From positions 1-6,677 of the forward strand of contig JAGQGA010000304.1 in assembly GCA_020432595.1 (NCBI GenBank): a stretch of DNA of 6,677 nt. Direction: 5' to 3'. Each line of letters begins with the position of its first letter. Positions within the stretch are counted from its first letter, which is position 1. Shown here in pieces: positions 485 through 6,677 of the stretch. Source of the stretch: Anaerolineales bacterium. Lineage in GTDB: Bacteria; Chloroflexota; Anaerolineae; Promineifilales; Promineifilaceae. Position numbers and translations under genes: made by a program. The notes beneath the pieces were generated by a model. That model ran no database searches and had not been told where the DNA came from. It saw only the letters and a program-made list of their open reading frames with translations.

Positions 485-1627
485 ATGACCCAAACGAAGG
501 CGGAAAAGCTGCGGCAGCGGAACCGTGAACTCTCCATTTTGAATAGCATTGCCCAGGCACTGAACAGTTCGGTGGATTTGGCGCAGGCGCTGCAAGGGGT
601 GCTGGAGCAGGTTGCCAGTTTGCTCGATTTGCAAACAGGGTGGATTTGGCTGCTGGATGAAGAGACGGGGGCTTCGTATCTGGCGGCGGCGCAAAATTTG
701 CCGCCGGTGCTGGGGGAAAATCCGCGCCGGATGGAGGGAAGCTGCTACTGTTTACGGACGTACCGTGAGGATGATATGGAGGGGGCGGCCAATATTAATG
801 TGGTGACGTGCAGCCGTTTGGAGAAGGTGGTGGATGGCACGGACGGGCTGCGTTACCATGCAAGCATTCCGCTAAACGCCTACGGGAAGAAGCTGGGGGT
901 GCTGAATGTTGCCAGCCCGGATTGGCGACCGCTGTCGGCAGGGGATTTGCGGCTGCTGCATACGGTGGGCGATATGCTGGGGATTGCCATTGAGCGAGCG
1001 CGGCTGTTTGCCCAAAGTGCGCGGCTGGGGGCGGTGGAGGAGCGGAATCGGCTGGCGCGGGAGATTCATGATACGTTGGCACAGGGATTAACGGCCGTTT
1101 CCCTCCACCTCGAATCCGCCGATGCCCTGCTGGAAGCCCATGCCACCCTTGACCAACTCCAGCCGATGATTCGGTGGGCGCTGGCACTGACACAGGAAAA
1201 TCTGGAAGAGGTGCGCCGTTCGGTGATGGATTTGCGGGCAGCACCGCTGGCGGGGCGGACGCTGGCCGAGGCGTTGGAGATGTTGGTGGAAGGGGTGGAA
1301 ACGGCCGTTATTCTGCGCCTCACCGGAGCCAACCGCCCCCTTTCCCCGCGTATCGAGGCCGGGCTGTACCGGCTGGCTCAGGAAGCGTTGAACAATGTGG
1401 ACAAACACGCCGCCGCCACCCAAGCCATTCTCGATCTGGTTGTGACCCCGACCGAGGTATGGCTGACCGTTGAGGACAATGGCTGCGGCTTTGATGTGGA
1501 AACCAAGCCCCCCGGCCGCTTTGGGCTGGTGGGCATGAACGAAAGGGTACGGCTGCTGGGCGGCACGCTGCGGTTGGAAAGCTGTCCTGGTGAAGGGACG
1601 CGGGTCGCGGTGAAACTGCCGCTGTAA
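485..1627 (+). CDS. Soluble GAF-domain sensor histidine kinase, NarL/LiaS (HisKA_3) type
   Basis: This is a two-component sensor kinase that autophosphorylates on a histidine and passes the phosphate to a NarL-type response regulator. No transmembrane segment or signal peptide is visible in its 380 residues, so it should act in the cytoplasm. A short charged N-terminal helix (about 4-18) leads into a GAF domain (about 19-176). A HisKA_3 dimerisation region follows, with E185-E-R-N-R-L-A-R-E-I-H195-D. H195 is the phosphoacceptor, and HDxxxQ ending at Q200 is the phosphatase motif of this class. The ATPase domain shows the N box (Q299-E-A-L-N-N304 through K307-H308-A), G1 box D331-N-G-C-G and G2 region G344-R-F-G-L-V-G350. 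All catalytic elements appear intact. The GAF domain carries C87, C89, C109 and H125, which might bind a metal or sense redox state; that is inference. No response regulator adjoins it. The stop lies 16 bases before the carboxylase start, suggesting cotranscription. The start ATG has only an A-rich upstream stretch, no strong ribosome binding site. Confidence 0.93.
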   Translation: MTQTKAEKLRQRNRELSILNSIAQALNSSVDLAQALQGVLEQVASLLDLQTGWIWLLDEETGASYLAAAQNLPPVLGENPRRMEGSCYCLRTYREDDMEGAANINVVTCSRLEKVVDGTDGLRYHASIPLNAYGKKLGVLNVASPDWRPLSAGDLRLLHTVGDMLGIAIERARLFAQSARLGAVEERNRLAREIHDTLAQGLTAVSLHLESADALLEAHATLDQLQPMIRWALALTQENLEEVRRSVMDLRAAPLAGRTLAEALEMLVEGVETAVILRLTGANRPLSPRIEAGLYRLAQEALNNVDKHAAATQAILDLVVTPTEVWLTVEDNGCGFDVETKPPGRFGLVGMNERVRLLGGTLRLESCPGEGTRVAVKLPL

Positions 1628-1632
1628 AAAAT

Positions 1633-1639
1633 AAAGGAG
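1633..1639 (+). promoter_or_regulatory. Ribosome binding site of the biotin carboxylase gene
   Basis: AAAGGAG lies four bases before the ATG at 1644, within the 16-base gap after the kinase stop. It fixes the carboxylase start and supports independent initiation on a shared transcript. Confidence 0.85.
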
Positions 1640-1643
1640 CAAA

Positions 1644-3152
1644 ATGTTTAACAAAATCTTAGTTGCCAACCGGGGCGAAATTGCGCGGCGGATTTTTGCG
1701 GCGTGCCGCGAGCTGGGGGTGACAACGGTGGCGATTTATTCCGAGGTGGATGCAGGGGCGGCCTGGCTTGATTTGGCCGACGAGGCGTATCTGCTGCCGG
1801 GGGCAACGGCCGTTGAGACCTACCTCAATCGCCCCCTCATTTTGGACATTGCCCGCCGGTGCGGAGCCGAAGCTATTCACCCCGGCTACGGCTTTTTGAG
1901 CGAAAACGCCGATTTTGCCGCTGCCTGTGCCGAACACGGGCTTGTGTTTATTGGCCCCAGCCCGGAAGCGATGCGGCGGCTGGGGAGTAAGGCTTCGGCG
2001 CGGGCAGTGGCGGAGCAGGCCGGGGTGCCAGTGGTGCCGGGGGTAGACGGGCTGGGCAAAACAACGGCCGAACTGTTGGCTGCGGCCGAGGAAATTGGTT
2101 TTCCTGTTCTCATCAAAGCCAGTGCGGGCGGTGGCGGCAAGGGGATGCGGGTGGTGGAACGGCCGGCCGACTTTGCCGATGCGGTGCGAGCGGCGCGGAG
2201 CGAGTCGCAGTCGTCGTTTGGCAGCGGCCATTTGCTGCTGGAAAAATATTTTACCGATGTCCACCACGTCGAAATTCAGGTGCTGGGGGACAGCCACGGT
2301 ACGGTGCTGCATCTGTTTGAGCGGGAATGTTCGGTGCAGCGGCGACACCAGAAGATTATTGAGGAAAGCCCGGCGCCGATTGTGACCGACGATGGGCTGC
2401 GGCAGCAGATGGCGGCGGCGGCGGTGGCGCTGGCGCAGGTGGCGGGGTATGAGAATGCGGGGACGGTGGAGTTTATTGTTGATGGGCAGGGGGGTGGTTT
2501 TTACTTTTTGGAGATGAACACGCGCTTGCAGGTGGAGCATCCGGTGACGGAGATGGTGACGGGGCTGGATTTGGCGACGTGGCAGATTCGCATAGCGGCG
2601 GGGGAGCGGTTGTCGCTGGCGCAAGCCGATATCCGGCAGCGGGGACACGCGCTTGAGTGTCGGGTGTATGCCGAAGACCCGGCGAACCATTTTTTGCCGT
2701 CTACGGGGGAAATTGTGTGGTACAAACGGCCGTTTGGCCCCAACATTCGCGTAGACGACGGCATTGCCACGGGCAGCGTGGTCACGCCCTATTATGACCC
2801 GATGCTGGCAAAGGTGATCACCTGGGGAGCCAGCCGCGCCGAAGCCATTGCCAAGATGGTGCAGGCGTTGGAGAGCATGGTGGTGCTGGGGATTACCACC
2901 AATATCCCCTATTTGCTGGCGATTTTGCAGGAGCCGCAGTTCCAGGCGGGGCGGACGAATACCCATTATTTGGCGACGCATTTGGCAGGTTGGAAGGGGG
3001 AAACGGCCGTTTTTGAAACTGAATGGCTGGGGTTGGCGGCGATGGAGTTGCTGGCGGGGCGGCGCGTGAGTGGGAATGGGGGGGTGAATGAGGGAAAAAC
3101 GGCCGTTTTTGACCCCTGGGGCATGGCTGGTGGTTGGCGGAATGTTGCCTAA
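1644..3152 (+). CDS. accC: Biotin carboxylase of an acyl-CoA carboxylase, apparently truncated alpha subunit
   Basis: Biotin carboxylase uses ATP and bicarbonate to carboxylate biotin on a carrier domain, the first half-reaction of acetyl-, propionyl- or methylcrotonyl-CoA carboxylases. The 502-residue protein starts MFNKILVANRGEIARRI, the standard N-terminus. Its ATP-grasp core is complete: K116 in GSKASAR, K158 in LIKAS, the glycine loop around 162-168, H207-H208, K237 in HQKIIEE, E276, E290-M-N-T-R294 through E298-H, and R340. These match the active-site positions of E. coli AccC. Stand-alone AccC is about 450 residues long. Here the core ends near HYLATHLAGW (441-450), and about 52 extra residues follow. 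They include DPWGMAGGWR (490-499), which resembles the start of the BT domain of methylcrotonyl- and propionyl-CoA carboxylase alpha subunits. The rest of that domain and the biotinyl Met-Lys-Met domain are missing. The stop abuts the stop of the convergent gene. The enzyme may still work with a separately encoded carrier protein. Substrate is not determinable here. Confidence 0.92.
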   Translation: MFNKILVANRGEIARRIFAACRELGVTTVAIYSEVDAGAAWLDLADEAYLLPGATAVETYLNRPLILDIARRCGAEAIHPGYGFLSENADFAAACAEHGLVFIGPSPEAMRRLGSKASARAVAEQAGVPVVPGVDGLGKTTAELLAAAEEIGFPVLIKASAGGGGKGMRVVERPADFADAVRAARSESQSSFGSGHLLLEKYFTDVHHVEIQVLGDSHGTVLHLFERECSVQRRHQKIIEESPAPIVTDDGLRQQMAAAAVALAQVAGYENAGTVEFIVDGQGGGFYFLEMNTRLQVEHPVTEMVTGLDLATWQIRIAAGERLSLAQADIRQRGHALECRVYAEDPANHFLPSTGEIVWYKRPFGPNIRVDDGIATGSVVTPYYDPMLAKVITWGASRAEAIAKMVQALESMVVLGITTNIPYLLAILQEPQFQAGRTNTHYLATHLAGWKGETAVFETEWLGLAAMELLAGRRVSGNGGVNEGKTAVFDPWGMAGGWRNVA

Positions 3153-5705
3153 TTATCGAATGTATTCAATGGTTTCCTGAAGGCAATTCGGACAGGGACA
3201 GATCTTTTCGAGAGTGATGGCCGTGCGTCCATCATCCAGGCCGCGATTATGAGAAAGCTGTAGGCGGATAAAACCGATTTCGCGGGCGCGGGTGTGGGTT
3301 GCTTCACAAGCCATGGTCCAATCCTGGTGGGACAGGTAATCTTGCCAAAAGATGTTTTTGAGTTCGGTATAGATTTCGTCGGAGTATTGGCTGCTGGTGG
3401 CGTAGGAAACGGCCGTTTGTTCATCCCCAAGTAGCAAATAGGTGAGCATGAGCTGATACTCTGCAAAGGCAGAGTGATGGAAGTACGTGTGCGGCATTCG
3501 CATAAAGCTGGCTATTGCTTGCTCATACTCACCGCGCAGCAGATGCCAATTGCCTGTATAGGCATCCAAGTAGGAATGTGGATCGGGAACTGATGAGGCG
3601 AAGATATAACCAGCATTACTCCATAAGTAGGTGTTGGTGCTATTGCGTGTTTCGCCACCACTGACGACCCCACTGGCACCCCCATAGGTAATGATGTCGT
3701 TATACCCATCTTGATCCACGTCTTCAAACCGAAGGTCATATCCCCCAGATGTGTAGATTGATTGCCTATCTGCCAGCAAGGTGATGAATTGGTTATTCTG
3801 CCAGCCCATTGGCATATATTCATCAATTTGATTGCCATTACCAAAACAAGTGATGCGGAAGATAACATCCGGTAGAGCATCTTTGTTAAGGTCTTGGATG
3901 GCGTGAATGCGTGAGCCGGTCGCGGGTTGAACCCAAACGAGGCGATACGGTTCAGCTAAATTTTGCGGGTCAGGATGAATGACAAATACCCAGCCGGGTG
4001 GAGTAGATGAATAGGTGGGGTCGTGACGACAGTCTAGCTCAGACGTGCTGGCAAATAATAGAATTTCTTCATGCCCATCTCCGTCAAGATCAGCTTGTTC
4101 CCAACCTGCTTGAGCATGATACGATTCTGTCCAATTGGCAAGTAACGCATCCAGTTGGGTTAGCTGATCTGGTGCGGCATTCAAAAAAGCGGTGATCGTG
4201 GCCGGCCACTCGGCCATTGTTGGCGGTACAGGTGGTATGGTGTGGGCTGGCGGGGGTGTCAGAATCGGGTGCGGTGTTGTCGTTGGTGGCGGGGGTGGGG
4301 ATGTTGGTGTTGGGCCTGATGTTGCCGTAGGTGGTACGGGGGAAGGTGTCGGTGTTGATTGGGATGTTTGGCCGTTGGCCTTCAGGACAGCATAAGTGCC
4401 ATCAAACTTGATGTTGATGTTGCCCCATGAGTCAGTGAATTGCGGTGGTCGTATTTGAATCAAAATTTGGTTGTGGGGTAAGCTTTGGACTGGCTTGATG
4501 TGGGTATAGCGTGGCTGGAGGGTGGCCCATAAATCTTGCTGCCACAAAAATTCGCCGGTTGCCCGATCTAATTGGGCGAGATAGCCAGCCGTTGATCCCA
4601 CGTACAAATATTTTTCAGTGGGTAGGACGGGGGCTGATTCTTCGCCAGGCAATTGCGTTGCCCAAATGAGTTTTCCCGTTTGGGCACTGCGGCTGCTTAC
4701 TGCGGTTTCGTCACGCAGATAAAGGGCACCATCATAGAGGGCGAAGTTGGCTGTGAGGTAGGAAACGGCCGTTTGCCAGCGAATGGTGCCATCAGCTAAC
4801 GAGCGGGCAAAAAGCGTTGTTTTGCCATCTGCGTTAAAAATATAGAACAAGAGATCGCCATATACCGTTGGCTGATAGTAAGCCACACTTGATGTTTTGA
4901 CCTCATGCCGATTTTGGATTTCCTTGATGACTGCGCCAGAATTCAGGCCAATGACCAGCGTTAGCTGATTACAGTGGTGATAAATTTTGTTTCCAGCGAC
5001 TTGGGTTTGGTTGCTGTTTGTCATGCAGCGATTGGCGGCCTTTGTGTCCAGTTGCCACTGTTTGCTTCCGTCGTGTTGGCTGAATCGTGTAAGAATACCG
5101 TCCTGGTTGAGCAAAACCCCAGAGGCGAAGGCGGTAAGGTAAGGAGGTGGAGGATAGTTGGAAACGGCCGTTTTAGAGACATCTATAGACCAAAGCATAC
5201 TATCCTGCGATAACGTCTTGGCAGACAACACCATCCTGTCTGCTTGTTGATTGTCCTCAACAAGTAAATACAAAATTTCGCCATAGGCAGCCAGTGCCAG
5301 TGGTGGGCTGGAGGAAATCGTTTTTATTGTTTCATGTGTTAAATCAGCAGAAAATAGCTGTTTGTCGGGCGTTGTGCCAACTAGCCATTCCACGCTTCCA
5401 TTGGTTGTATAAAGTGCGGTTTGTAGTTTGTCGCCCATAGGCGGAGCAGCAAAACCAAGCTGAACTGTTGAGTCAGTGGTTGCAGATGTGGTGGGTGATG
5501 GGAACGCTGTAGCCGTTTTTGTTGCTGTTGTTGGCCTAGCAGTTGCTATACTTGTTTGATTGGTAGATGAGGCTGGTGGTTGCAGCGTCTGAATTGAGAT
5601 TTTTGAAACTGTTGCTGCTGGTACCGATAGGGTGGCGGCAGGTTGCTGACATGCACTTAGCAAAAATAGCACCAAACTAGCTAAAATCCATTGTTTTCCC
5701 CACAT
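3153..5705 (-). CDS. Large lipoprotein: PQQ-like beta-propeller, Pro/Thr linker, VCBS/FG-GAP-like region, TPR-like tail
   Basis: I do not recognise a named gene. From ATG at 5705 the product is 850 residues. A signal peptide (MWGKQW, hydrophobic core, LLSAC) ends in a lipobox with C19 as the predicted lipidated residue, so it should be anchored outside the cytoplasm. A Ser/Thr-rich stretch (about 20-85) leads to blades of a PQQ-type propeller (about 92-397), with recurring units such as GTIRWQTAV, GKLIWATQL and GEFLWQQDL. A linker of almost only Pro and Thr/Ser follows (about 449-496). Next come three calcium-loop-like motifs: DLDGDGHEE (539-547), DLNKDALPD (605-613) and DVDQDGYND (662-670), as in VCBS/FG-GAP repeats. 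The tail (about 713-800) is helical and TPR-like, and the C-terminus has CPCPNC (836-841). A binding or structural surface role is plausible; no catalytic motif is seen. G+C is visibly lower than in the carboxylase (26 of 60 bases at 4801-4860 against 45 of 60 at 2401-2460). An upstream GTG at 5714 would add three residues but overlaps the ribosome binding site. Confidence 0.88.
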   Translation of the reverse strand: MWGKQWILASLVLFLLSACQQPAATLSVPAATVSKISIQTLQPPASSTNQTSIATARPTTATKTATAFPSPTTSATTDSTVQLGFAAPPMGDKLQTALYTTNGSVEWLVGTTPDKQLFSADLTHETIKTISSSPPLALAAYGEILYLLVEDNQQADRMVLSAKTLSQDSMLWSIDVSKTAVSNYPPPPYLTAFASGVLLNQDGILTRFSQHDGSKQWQLDTKAANRCMTNSNQTQVAGNKIYHHCNQLTLVIGLNSGAVIKEIQNRHEVKTSSVAYYQPTVYGDLLFYIFNADGKTTLFARSLADGTIRWQTAVSYLTANFALYDGALYLRDETAVSSRSAQTGKLIWATQLPGEESAPVLPTEKYLYVGSTAGYLAQLDRATGEFLWQQDLWATLQPRYTHIKPVQSLPHNQILIQIRPPQFTDSWGNINIKFDGTYAVLKANGQTSQSTPTPSPVPPTATSGPTPTSPPPPPTTTPHPILTPPPAHTIPPVPPTMAEWPATITAFLNAAPDQLTQLDALLANWTESYHAQAGWEQADLDGDGHEEILLFASTSELDCRHDPTYSSTPPGWVFVIHPDPQNLAEPYRLVWVQPATGSRIHAIQDLNKDALPDVIFRITCFGNGNQIDEYMPMGWQNNQFITLLADRQSIYTSGGYDLRFEDVDQDGYNDIITYGGASGVVSGGETRNSTNTYLWSNAGYIFASSVPDPHSYLDAYTGNWHLLRGEYEQAIASFMRMPHTYFHHSAFAEYQLMLTYLLLGDEQTAVSYATSSQYSDEIYTELKNIFWQDYLSHQDWTMACEATHTRAREIGFIRLQLSHNRGLDDGRTAITLEKICPCPNCLQETIEYIR
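4218..4361 (-). repeat. Low-complexity Pro/Thr linker coding tract (G-rich on plus strand)
   Basis: About 48 codons of the lipoprotein gene read almost only Pro, Thr and Ser. On the plus strand this is a G-rich tract with several runs of three to five G, for example around 4251-4256 and 4291-4299. Such linkers separate extracellular domains and are prone to slippage-driven length change. The G runs could allow quadruplex formation on the template strand, which is inference. Confidence 0.75.
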
Positions 5706-5711
5706 GATAGG

Positions 5712-5719
5712 CACCTTTT
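5712..5719 (-). promoter_or_regulatory. Ribosome binding site deciding the lipoprotein start
   Basis: On the minus strand AAAAGGTG lies six bases before the ATG at 5705-5703. The possible GTG start at 5714 is part of this same motif and has no separate site upstream. The ATG is therefore preferred, and the signal peptide then begins MWGKQW, a normal lipoprotein N-terminus. Confidence 0.75.
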
Positions 5720-5753
5720 GCTGAAGTAGATGAATGACTGGATGTACCTCAGC
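5720..5753 (-). promoter_or_regulatory. Small hairpin candidate in the lipoprotein leader
   Basis: In the 89-base gap between add and the lipoprotein gene, the arms 5745-5753 and 5720-5728 can pair over nine bases with one non-canonical position, around a 16-base loop. The stem ends directly at the ribosome binding site (5712-5719). It could modulate translation, but a nine-base match may arise by chance. I found no convincing promoter in the gap, so the lipoprotein may be expressed from add or from a weak promoter here. Confidence 0.25.
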
Positions 5754-5794
5754 TTCAATGTTTGCGTTACTCCGTTAAATTTGCGACATCTTCC

Positions 5795-6677
5795 CTAAAA
5801 AACCTGCGACACCCACACGTCAAACGATTGCAGCAGCCGCGTTTTGGTTTCGGCATCCACCCCCGCTACCTCATAGGCATTGCGGGCGATGCGAACAAGG
5901 TCTTTTTGCGCGTAGCCAAATTGATACAACAACAACTCATACTCTTGGCATAGATTAGTGTTAAAAAGCGGCGGGTCGTCGGTATTGACAGTGACATATA
6001 GCCCTAACTCGTCAAGCTGCCGGAATGGGTGCTGGCTAATGTCGGGGTACACCTTAAGCTTTTGATTGCTGGTCGGGTTGATTTCCAGCGGAATTTGCCG
6101 GTCGCGCAGCAGTGCCAGCAGATTGGGGTCTTCGATGGCGCGAACGCCGTGGCCGATGCGGTCGGCTTGCAGGGCGTTAACCGCTCCCCAAACGCTGCCT
6201 GCTCCCATCGTTTCCCCAGCGTGGGGGACACTGAGCAGCCCGGCTTCCTTGGCGGCGGCAAAGGCATGGGCAAATGGTTCCGGCGGTGCGCCCACTTCGT
6301 AGCCACCCAGCCCAAAACCAACCACGCCCACATCCCGCCCTTGCAGGGCAAATTGCAGCGTTTTTTCGGCTGGGGCGGGGTTGTAGCCACTGTTTGGGGT
6401 GCCATTGGCATCGCGGAAGCTGAAGTTGCGCGGGCAGTCAAAGACCCAGCGCATTTCTACGCCAAATTCGTCGCGGGCGCGTAAACGGCCGTTTTCCAGC
6501 CCTGCCAAAATCTCCTCAATCTGCATCCGTTTATCCTGAATATGCGTGTGCGTAAACGGTGTGACCGTCACCTCGCGGTAGCGAATATTTTGCACCGCCA
6601 TGTCGGCTCCGCACTCATAGGCAATAAGGGCAAAGTCATCGGCCGAGCGAATCAGGTCAGAAATGGTAAGGTAGACT
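5795..6677 (-). CDS. add: Adenosine deaminase family protein, N-terminus beyond right edge
   Basis: Adenosine deaminases hydrolyse adenosine (or deoxyadenosine) to inosine and ammonia in purine salvage, using a zinc ion in a TIM barrel. The frame stays open from the right edge to TAG at 5797-5795, giving 293 visible residues. The ATG at 6601 is internal: upstream codons read ISDLIRSADDFALIAYECGAD, which is conserved family sequence before the V-x-Y-x-E-V strand. Visible motifs are HAGET (H codon 6221-6223, catalytic Glu 6212-6214), D-R-I-G-H-G (catalytic His 6149-6151), L-E-I-N-P-T-S-N and V-N-T-D-D-P (zinc-binding Asp 5978-5980). The N-terminal metal-binding HxH motif lies outside the window. 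The family usually has 330-360 residues, so perhaps 40-60 are missing. The sequence reads LEIN where many members have LEVC. A related reaction, such as aminodeoxyfutalosine deamination in menaquinone synthesis, cannot be excluded. The lipoprotein gene follows 89 bases downstream on the same strand. Confidence 0.9.
   Translation of the reverse strand, partial: VYLTISDLIRSADDFALIAYECGADMAVQNIRYREVTVTPFTHTHIQDKRMQIEEILAGLENGRLRARDEFGVEMRWVFDCPRNFSFRDANGTPNSGYNPAPAEKTLQFALQGRDVGVVGFGLGGYEVGAPPEPFAHAFAAAKEAGLLSVPHAGETMGAGSVWGAVNALQADRIGHGVRAIEDPNLLALLRDRQIPLEINPTSNQKLKVYPDISQHPFRQLDELGLYVTVNTDDPPLFNTNLCQEYELLLYQFGYAQKDLVRIARNAYEVAGVDAETKTRLLQSFDVWVSQVF

Follow-up and report, generated by a model that had tools for sequence, protein, structure and literature searches.

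Ten exact copies of the perfect palindrome AACGGCCGTT occur in a window of 6,677 bases (the whole stretch of DNA analysed), and with a probability of roughly 0.7 they belong to a highly iterated palindrome (HIP) system long inherited within a single order-level group of Anaerolineae-type Chloroflexota. It is a genuine HIP-type system, new in its lineage and in its core. The copies are spread over four genes on both strands, including the less GC-rich lipoprotein-like gene, and the count of ten in 6.7 kb given in an earlier note on this DNA was reproduced. The genes and the copies, which carry no strand, are listed below.

485..1627, + strand: GAF/HisKA_3/HATPase histidine kinase gene, 2 copies
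1644..3152, + strand: biotin carboxylase gene, 4 copies
3153..5714, - strand: lipoprotein-like gene with PQQ_2 and FG-GAP matches, GC 0.495, 3 copies
5795..6676, - strand: adenosine deaminase gene, truncated where the window ends, 1 copy
1090..1099: AACGGCCGTT copy, T-A-V frame, histidine kinase gene
1300..1309: AACGGCCGTT copy, T-A-V frame, histidine kinase gene
1805..1814: AACGGCCGTT copy, T-A-V frame, biotin carboxylase gene; 8-mer present at this alignment position in 4 of 24 ACGGCCGT-type orthologues
2725..2734: AACGGCCGTT copy, K-R-P-F frame, biotin carboxylase gene; 8-mer present at this alignment position in 13 of 24 ACGGCCGT-type orthologues, also in 1 of 6 others
3002..3011: AACGGCCGTT copy, T-A-V frame, biotin carboxylase gene; private to the window (0 of 30 in the alignment)
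3098..3107: AACGGCCGTT copy, T-A-V frame, biotin carboxylase gene; private to the window (0 of 30 in the alignment)
3408..3417: AACGGCCGTT copy, T-A-V frame, lipoprotein-like gene
4764..4773: AACGGCCGTT copy, T-A-V frame, lipoprotein-like gene
5163..5172: AACGGCCGTT copy, T-A-V frame, lipoprotein-like gene
6484..6493: AACGGCCGTT copy, N-G-R frame, adenosine deaminase gene

Markov models of order 1–3, trained on the window itself, predict 0.011–0.040 exact copies versus the 10 observed. When up to two mismatches are allowed, the window holds 16 matches, compared with a mean of 3.8 and a maximum of 10 in 200 dinucleotide-preserving shuffles. The flanks had been described as often common to the copies, and 7 of the 10 indeed reach the longer form AAACGGCCGTTT. 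T-A-V is encoded by 8 of the 10 copies; the four window proteins contain 9 TAV tripeptides, of which 8 are motif copies. A scan of genome contigs with the lipoprotein-like gene gave no match.

Confinement of the motif to the window is ruled out by thousands of copies in the genomes of relatives and by order-wide enrichment. Whole-genome counts in 11 of 13 Chloroflexota genomes, which were picked up by a two-copy pattern, range from 877 to 5,060 versus 6–42 for a reversed control word. In a class sample of 298 genomes, all 11 enriched genomes lie inside one order-level group, in which 29 of 56 genomes carry at least 361 copies; the enrichment is thus restricted to this group of Anaerolineae-type Chloroflexota, and the window nests within the ACGGCCGT clade. 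The comparison of density across related genomes, proposed in the earlier note as a check, returned high counts in 11 relatives and in one order only. The note's reading of a HIP1-like genome-wide palindrome in Chloroflexota holds because whole-genome counts, order restriction, conservation and alternate flanks concur.

The constrained unit in the relatives is the inner 8-mer ACGGCCGT, with the core CGGCCG, rather than the 10-mer; the core named in the earlier note stands, and its 10-mer unit does not. In three of four genome groups, conservation is 0.92–0.98 inside the 8-mer and only 0.72–0.81 at the next base, while in the fourth, with 45 sites, the footprint is weaker (0.76–0.92 inside). 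The base beyond the 8-mer is A in 56–57% of cases in two genome groups and most commonly C in another, and farther out than this base conservation varies from 0.65 to 0.94, a variation attributed to codon position. Among palindromic 8-mers seen at least four times, ACGGCCGT has the highest observed/expected (O/E) ratio in 28 of 28 genomes typed A..T. Pooled over 0.92 Mb, 1556 copies were found versus 61.8 expected (Markov), a 25-fold excess. Its density is 0.56–2.69 per kb in DNA samples from the 28 genomes; the sampling was in part built around two conserved genes, and G001 has 1.30 per kb in its sample versus 0.99 genome-wide. Among one-base deviants, those at the outer positions 1 and 8 are the most frequent (TCGGCCGT, O/E 2.26; GCGGCCGT, 1.23). 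All inner deviants have O/E below 1; those at position 3 are the most avoided (0.21–0.50), and those at position 4 reach 0.65–0.95.

The CGGCCG core is constant, and the flanking base switches (A..T, T..A, G..C) between branches. Other branches of the same order carry TCGGCCGA, GCGGCCGC or the bare hexamer; two relatives with TCGGCCGA have 9414 and 7668 copies genome-wide, and one with GCGGCCGC has 12040 versus 2 for the control. The trait can also be lost, because a strong HIP is missing from the subclade of G305, G330, G085, G053 and G132 and from G324, all of which nest in the ACGGCCGT clade. A mild 8-mer excess remains in G053 (646/116) and G085 (549/145).

Between related genomes, 1205 of 1415 ACGGCCGT sites are unchanged versus 6150 of 17414 (0.35) same-composition 8-mers, counted over 46 ordered genome pairs that are not independent, most of them entering in both directions. 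Fourfold third positions in biotin carboxylase are identical in 599 of 629 cases within sites (95%), versus 9567 of 15837 outside and 1889 of 2799 (67%) in the same codons outside sites. ACGGCCGT is therefore maintained at the DNA level beyond the demand of the protein, a comparison that the earlier note had suggested. This bears on the reading of the motif as a by-product of base composition or of a codon or peptide preference for T-A-V, in favour of which stand the eight TAV copies in the window and the 430 of 791 ORF copies in that offset. The other two offsets are also used (262 and 99), the motif occurs outside ORFs as well, the reversed word is not enriched, and words of the same composition are not conserved above background. 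Codon or peptide bias is refuted by the synonymous-site conservation and the use of all three offsets, and this explanation retains virtually no probability. The earlier note had allowed either selection or active spreading. Maintenance at the DNA level stands, and spreading or insertion of copies as units is unsupported, since sites touch alignment gaps no oftener than other 8-mers (65 of 1778, 0.037, versus 0.036). A REP/BIME or mobile repeat is rejected by the same gap rate and by the higher density inside ORFs (1.62 per kb) than outside (0.99 per kb). Sites are spread evenly along genes. Regular spacing was not found either: the spacing is close to random (CV 0.94 versus 0.97) except for avoidance below 40 bp, with 47 such pairs versus 82.7 at random, and three control words have no overall deficit of this kind.

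Two estimates are available for the strength of the force that keeps the sites; their basis is a single gene family and a Markov expectation in which the sites themselves are counted. A rate ratio of 0.088–0.116 gives a scaled strength S of 3.4–3.8, and the natural logarithm of the 25-fold enrichment gives 3.2. Three phage stretches with portal, terminase, head-protease or tape-measure genes carry ACGGCCGT at host density (1.71–2.16 per kb). Site conservation from phage to phage is 10/10, which is too few to use, as each pair is counted in both directions and 4 come from two contigs of one record.

In the HIP system proposed here, a cellular protein would read CGGCCG and one flanking base, and it would be dimeric or otherwise symmetric because the site is a palindrome. 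A weak force acting site by site, whether selection favouring sites that are read or a repair bias to the read form, may hold each site at a balance of mutation, force and drift with a scaled strength of about 3.2–3.8. This force would act on any DNA replicating in the cell, including that of phages.

The closest known system is HIP1 (GCGATCGC). The available portion of the 2015 survey by Elhai (PMC4390886), which covers cyanobacteria only, states that HIP1 was described in 1995, that in 2015 little was yet known of its significance, and that matching methyltransferases are reported for cyanobacterial HIPs. As far as that portion goes, both systems consist of an octamer palindrome of the layout x-CGNNCG-x' far above expectation, with similar densities (about 500–2500 per Mb in cyanobacteria, 560–2690 per Mb in the Chloroflexota samples), scattered losses, one-base deviants most frequent at the two end positions (1 and 8), and alternate flanks (TCGATCGA in cyanobacteria; TCGGCCGA and GCGGCCGC in the Chloroflexota order). 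The Chloroflexota motif differs in its host lineage (a Chloroflexota order), its core (CGGCCG instead of CGATCG), the lack of a matching conserved methyltransferase in the two families tested, and its presence in phage contigs. HIP1 also avoids change at positions 4–5, which the accessible text ties to the GATC methylation site (PMC4390886), whereas no marked avoidance there is seen in the one-base deviant O/E of the Chloroflexota motif. HIP1 proper is rejected by the core, by the 3 copies of ACGATCGT in 0.92 Mb, by the absence of GCGATCGC from the top octamers listed, and by the host, which is not cyanobacterial but nests in the ACGGCCGT clade. Among the papers listed in a literature search that covered few subscription papers, none reported the motif as a genome-wide feature or a HIP in Chloroflexota.

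The layout shared with HIP1 and the methyltransferases reported there, in the portion available, favour a model proposed for cyanobacteria (PMC4390886), in which CGGCCG (or GGCC) carries the mark of an orphan methyltransferase and methyl-directed mismatch repair shifts sequences, ratchet-like, to the palindrome. The prevalence of outer-base deviants agrees with it, and GGCC, the centre of the Chloroflexota motif, is the target of M.Ssp6803II, for which the part of the source available gives GG-m4C-C methylation in Synechocystis (PMC6560206). The search for such an enzyme covered two families, PF00145 (C5) and PF01555. A C5 enzyme is common to the hexamer-type G337 and G338 (76% identity) and also to G085, but PF00145 has no match in 14 of the 28 ACGGCCGT genomes. 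The C5 enzymes recovered are mostly unrelated to each other: those of G004, G085, G337 and G338 group together and the other ten stand alone, a grouping that is partial because the motif filter yielded a usable frame at only 14 of 30 loci; a single C5 methyltransferase for all is thus rejected. Strong matches to a two-part DPPY methyltransferase occur in 26 of the 28 ACGGCCGT genomes. This enzyme does not track the motif, which speaks against it as the reader: it also occurs in 13 of the 19 members of the order that lack a strong HIP, is found full-length at 48–65% identity in 13 genomes outside the order among 199 of the class, and is absent from the dense G008 and G012. G002 and G317 have no PF01555 matches at E <= 0.001 besides this two-part enzyme, which may also set them apart from the M.Ssp6803II case, and G002 has an additional 957-residue frame weakly like it. 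Within the two families searched, no conserved methyltransferase appears to account for the motif, and the solitary methyltransferase suggested in the earlier note finds no consistent candidate. CpG transitions are the commonest single differences in sites (28 of 73), as methylation might leave, but as a trace of deamination they are not in excess: CpG and other C changes are 0.0240 and 0.0200 in sites versus 0.0857 and 0.0779 in the background. The near-random spacing and the missing avoidance at positions 4–5, with position 3 most avoided instead, also speak against the methyltransferase model, which is somewhat unlikely.

Tentatively, the palindrome may instead be a methylation-independent self mark, in which x-CGGCCG-x' is recognised by DNA-processing machinery of the cell that favours marked DNA or spares it; this is unlikely. 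A Chi-like form of such a mark, quite unlikely in itself, would protect from or redirect the helicase-nuclease of the cell, so that marked chromosomes and phages survive better. It fits a lineage-specific octamer with an 8-bp footprint, the host density in some phages and the deficit of pairs below 40 bp, and it does not need methylation. Chi sites are likewise short, lineage-specific and over-represented genome-wide, but known ones are asymmetric and strand-biased, whereas a palindrome has no orientation. A chromosome-structuring role, with the copies as binding sites for a nucleoid-organising or regulator-like protein, would suit the density, the even spread along genes and the short-range avoidance, and readers of AACGNNCGTT-like palindromes exist, such as Thermus TTHA0973, whose homology-derived consensus is CNAACGNNCGTTNG in the part of the source available (PMC6651687). 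The equally dense phage stretches are unexpected under a chromosome-only role and the long-range spacing is near random; this role is distinctly improbable. Retention of a DNA uptake sequence through preferential uptake of marked DNA is very improbable, even though the available portion of the survey classes uptake sequences with Chi and HIP1 as over-represented oligomers (PMC4390886). The motif shares genome-wide over-representation as a short word with the uptake sequences of Neisseriaceae and Pasteurellaceae, but it is sparser outside ORFs than inside. Uptake sequences often lie as inverted pairs in terminators and are not known to be palindromic.

If the self mark were true, thousands of sites would have been built up and held in the chromosomes and phages of the same cells, and the flank switches (A..T, T..A, G..C) would make a lineage-specific password. 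The HIP system of this Chloroflexota order adds a second HIP family, outside the cyanobacterial phylum; it shares the x-CGNNCG-x' layout, its flanks switch likewise, and it provides comparative material beyond cyanobacteria. It questions the need for a matching conserved methyltransferase, its site-keeping force now has a measured strength, and its sites are common to some phages. The motif is also a cheap sequence signature by which contigs, phages and contaminants can be assigned to this group.

The window contains ten exact copies of the 10-mer palindrome AACGGCCGTT, which reproduces the count of the earlier note, against 0.011-0.040 expected from Markov models of order 1-3 trained on the window. 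The copies are carried by the histidine kinase, biotin carboxylase, lipoprotein-like protein, and adenosine deaminase genes. T-A-V is the peptide encoded by eight of the ten copies, and these account for all but one of the nine TAV tripeptides across the four proteins. An Rfam scan of the window returned no family at gathering score. The finding holds up and proves stronger than first claimed. An iterated palindrome is indeed present, but the repeated unit is the inner octamer ACGGCCGT (core CGGCCG, flanks A and T) and not the proposed 10-mer, whose outer A and T are a preference: two genome groups have A just outside the octamer at 56-57% of sites, and C is the commonest base there in another.

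A scan of genome_contigs for two motif copies 24 bp apart returned 39 stretches, including 24 from 13 genomes titled Chloroflexota, Chloroflexi, Anaerolineae, or Anaerolineaceae, and 15 from other bacteria. The 10-mer was counted in 18 of these genomes (the 13 Chloroflexota and five others), with the reversed string as control. Eleven of the 13 Chloroflexota genomes have 877-5060 copies versus 6-42 of the control, confirming in relatives the proposed genome-wide spread beyond the window; the remaining two have 21 and 6 copies, and the five other bacteria 3-14. Comparison across related genomes locates the enrichment in the order-level Chloroflexota group of genome G001 (56 genomes, hereafter the order). 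In an even, class-wide sample of 298 genomes, at least 83 copies were found in 11, all of which are members of the order, and at most 24 in the other 287. Within the order, 29 genomes have 361-5060 copies, six have 51-149, and 21 have at most 29. In a phylum sample of 400 genomes, three of them recognised as order members, G001 is the only outlier for ACGGCCGT (6147 versus 71), followed by G053 (646 versus 116) and G085 (549 versus 145), both of the same order, and then by G399 (471 versus 252) and G055 (408 versus 241). Some other Chloroflexota of this sample are strongly depleted in ACGGCCGT, with, for example, 0, 3, and 0 copies in G388, G370, and G599 beside 643, 490, and 158 of the reversed string; this may be due to restriction that targets CGGCCG or GGCC in other parts of the phylum.

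A survey drew 3-50 kb from each order genome except G332 (55 genomes), including stretches around two conserved genes, and ranked the palindromic octamers that occur at least four times by their observed/expected ratio. The top octamer is ACGGCCGT in 28 genomes (0.56-2.69 per kb), TCGGCCGA in G316 and G112, and GCGGCCGC in G198, the latter two sharing the CGGCCG core with other flanks. In G168, G296, G337, G338, and G339, CGGCCG as a bare hexamer exceeds the order-2 expectation 6-8-fold, and the remaining 19 genomes have no strong highly iterated palindrome (HIP), as judged on samples. Whole-genome counts of TCGGCCGA are 9414 in G316 (control 27) and 7668 in G112 (control 125), and the 8.0-Mb genome G198 has 12040 copies of GCGGCCGC (control 2). 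The densest form among the samples is a G168 stretch (L234, contig C188) with 6.0 CGGCCG per kb and no clear flank preference; G168 is without the two-part methyltransferase considered below.

The window's biotin carboxylase has relatives within the order at 60-77% identity. On a tree of the window and 44 genomes (45 rows; G008, G168, G241, G323, G331, G334, and G339 omitted for matches below 58% identity), with several weak forks and a midpoint root for drawing only, the HIP types require 7 changes, whereas shuffled types need 15.5 on average. The ACGGCCGT rows, among which the window is placed, make up one large part of the tree that also includes G305, G330, G085, G053, G132, and G324, which have no strong HIP. 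The other HIP types are grouped across the midpoint.

Across 46 ordered genome pairs (at least 2 kb aligned, 72.8-94.1% identity, most pairs counted in both directions), 1205 of 1415 ACGGCCGT sites are unchanged, versus 6150 of 17414 other composition-matched 8-mers and a fraction of 0.35 for all 8-mers. Per-base conservation in three groups is 0.92-0.98 within the octamer and 0.72-0.81 at the adjoining base; a fourth group, with 45 sites only, is weaker (0.76-0.92 and 0.71). The fluctuation further from the octamer is probably due to codon position. The proposed test for conservation at the DNA level beyond that of the protein is positive. Fourfold third positions of biotin carboxylase are identical in 599 of 629 cases in sites, 9567 of 15837 outside, and 1889 of 2799 for the same codons outside. 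Two of the four window sites in this gene recur in 4 and 13 of 24 ACGGCCGT-type orthologues, and the other two, where the peptide is variable, are private. The alignment has 111 site copies on 24 columns with up to 14 genomes per shared column, and 500 random placements never gave more than 4.

Contact with alignment gaps is similar for ACGGCCGT sites (0.037) and other 8-mers (0.036). Sites are evenly placed along genes, at 1.62 per kb inside ORFs and 0.99 outside. The scaled strength is 3.4-3.8 from conservation and 3.2 from enrichment, and this agreement suggests, under simplifying assumptions, a steady state maintained by a weak per-site force. CpG transitions are the commonest single-base departures (28 of 73), with no excess over background. 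Site spacing is near random; pairs less than 40 bp apart number 47 versus 82.7 at random, a deficit absent for three control words.

Carried over directly, the cyanobacterial model would predict a methyltransferase specific for the core. Searches with PF00145 and PF01555 gave no consistent candidate for the solitary methyltransferase hypothesised earlier. PF00145 matches 26 of 55 order genomes, with no match in 14 of the 28 ACGGCCGT genomes. PF01555 matches 51 of 55, and in most of 12 genomes inspected closely the weak recurrent match is an enzyme of 650-700 residues with the motifs DPMMGGGTT and DPPYFDSVQYSDL, low-score kinship with DUF1156-type methyltransferases, and, in G316, an adjoining NurA-domain gene:

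L200, 118-3326 (G316), with orthologues L202-L231: two-part DPPY methyltransferase, ~670 residues, low DUF1156-type scores

Strong matches (E <=1.6e-73, some cut by contig ends) occur in 26 of 28 ACGGCCGT genomes and 16 of 27 others, the latter comprising three with an alternate HIP and 13 without a strong HIP, and the enzyme is absent from the dense genomes G008 and G012 and all five hexamer-type genomes. Its presence does not follow the motif, which speaks against this enzyme as the reader. It is conserved in several orders of the class: of 199 class genomes, 13 that are not order members have full-length homologues.

An IMG/VR scan returned 25 stretches, chosen for holding a close motif pair and thus not a random phage sample, of which 13 have at least 1.19 ACGGCCGT per kb, four 0.66-0.88, and eight at most 0.43. 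Ten proteins from three dense stretches were checked against PHROGs:

L008: portal and head-protease genes, 1.71 ACGGCCGT per kb
L018: tape-measure gene, 1.82 ACGGCCGT per kb
L025: terminase and head-protease genes, 2.16 ACGGCCGT per kb

Their density matches that of the hosts. The sparse stretches are probably chance pairs or operators. L014 and L015, from one record (IMGVR 2654587566), have a conserved AACGGCCGTT pair 21 bp apart in motif-poor surroundings, which looks like a phage operator and not a HIP.

In 97 cyanobacterial genomes, HIP1 (core CGATCG) and alternate HIPs, including TCGATCGA, reach about 500-2500 per Mb, HIP1 deviants peak at positions 1 and 8 and are rarest at 4 and 5, and matching methyltransferases are described (Elhai 2015, PMC4390886). 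A text search of that paper gave no word starting with Chloroflex, Roseiflexus, or CGGCCG. The Chloroflexota system shares with HIP1 its layout, density, excess, outer-base deviants, alternate flanks, and scattered losses. In contrast, it differs in core and host, lacks the special avoidance at positions 4-5, and shows no methyltransferase link within the two families searched. The Chloroflexota motif works like a HIP, yet it is not HIP1.

Motif-dense contigs also occur within otherwise motif-free genomes, namely L312 (G207, contig C304; 17 ACGGCCGT in 8.8 kb, beside only 9 copies of the 10-mer in the entire genome) and contigs C224 and C343 of G005. These are probably mis-binned, and the motif could be used as a contamination check for MAGs.
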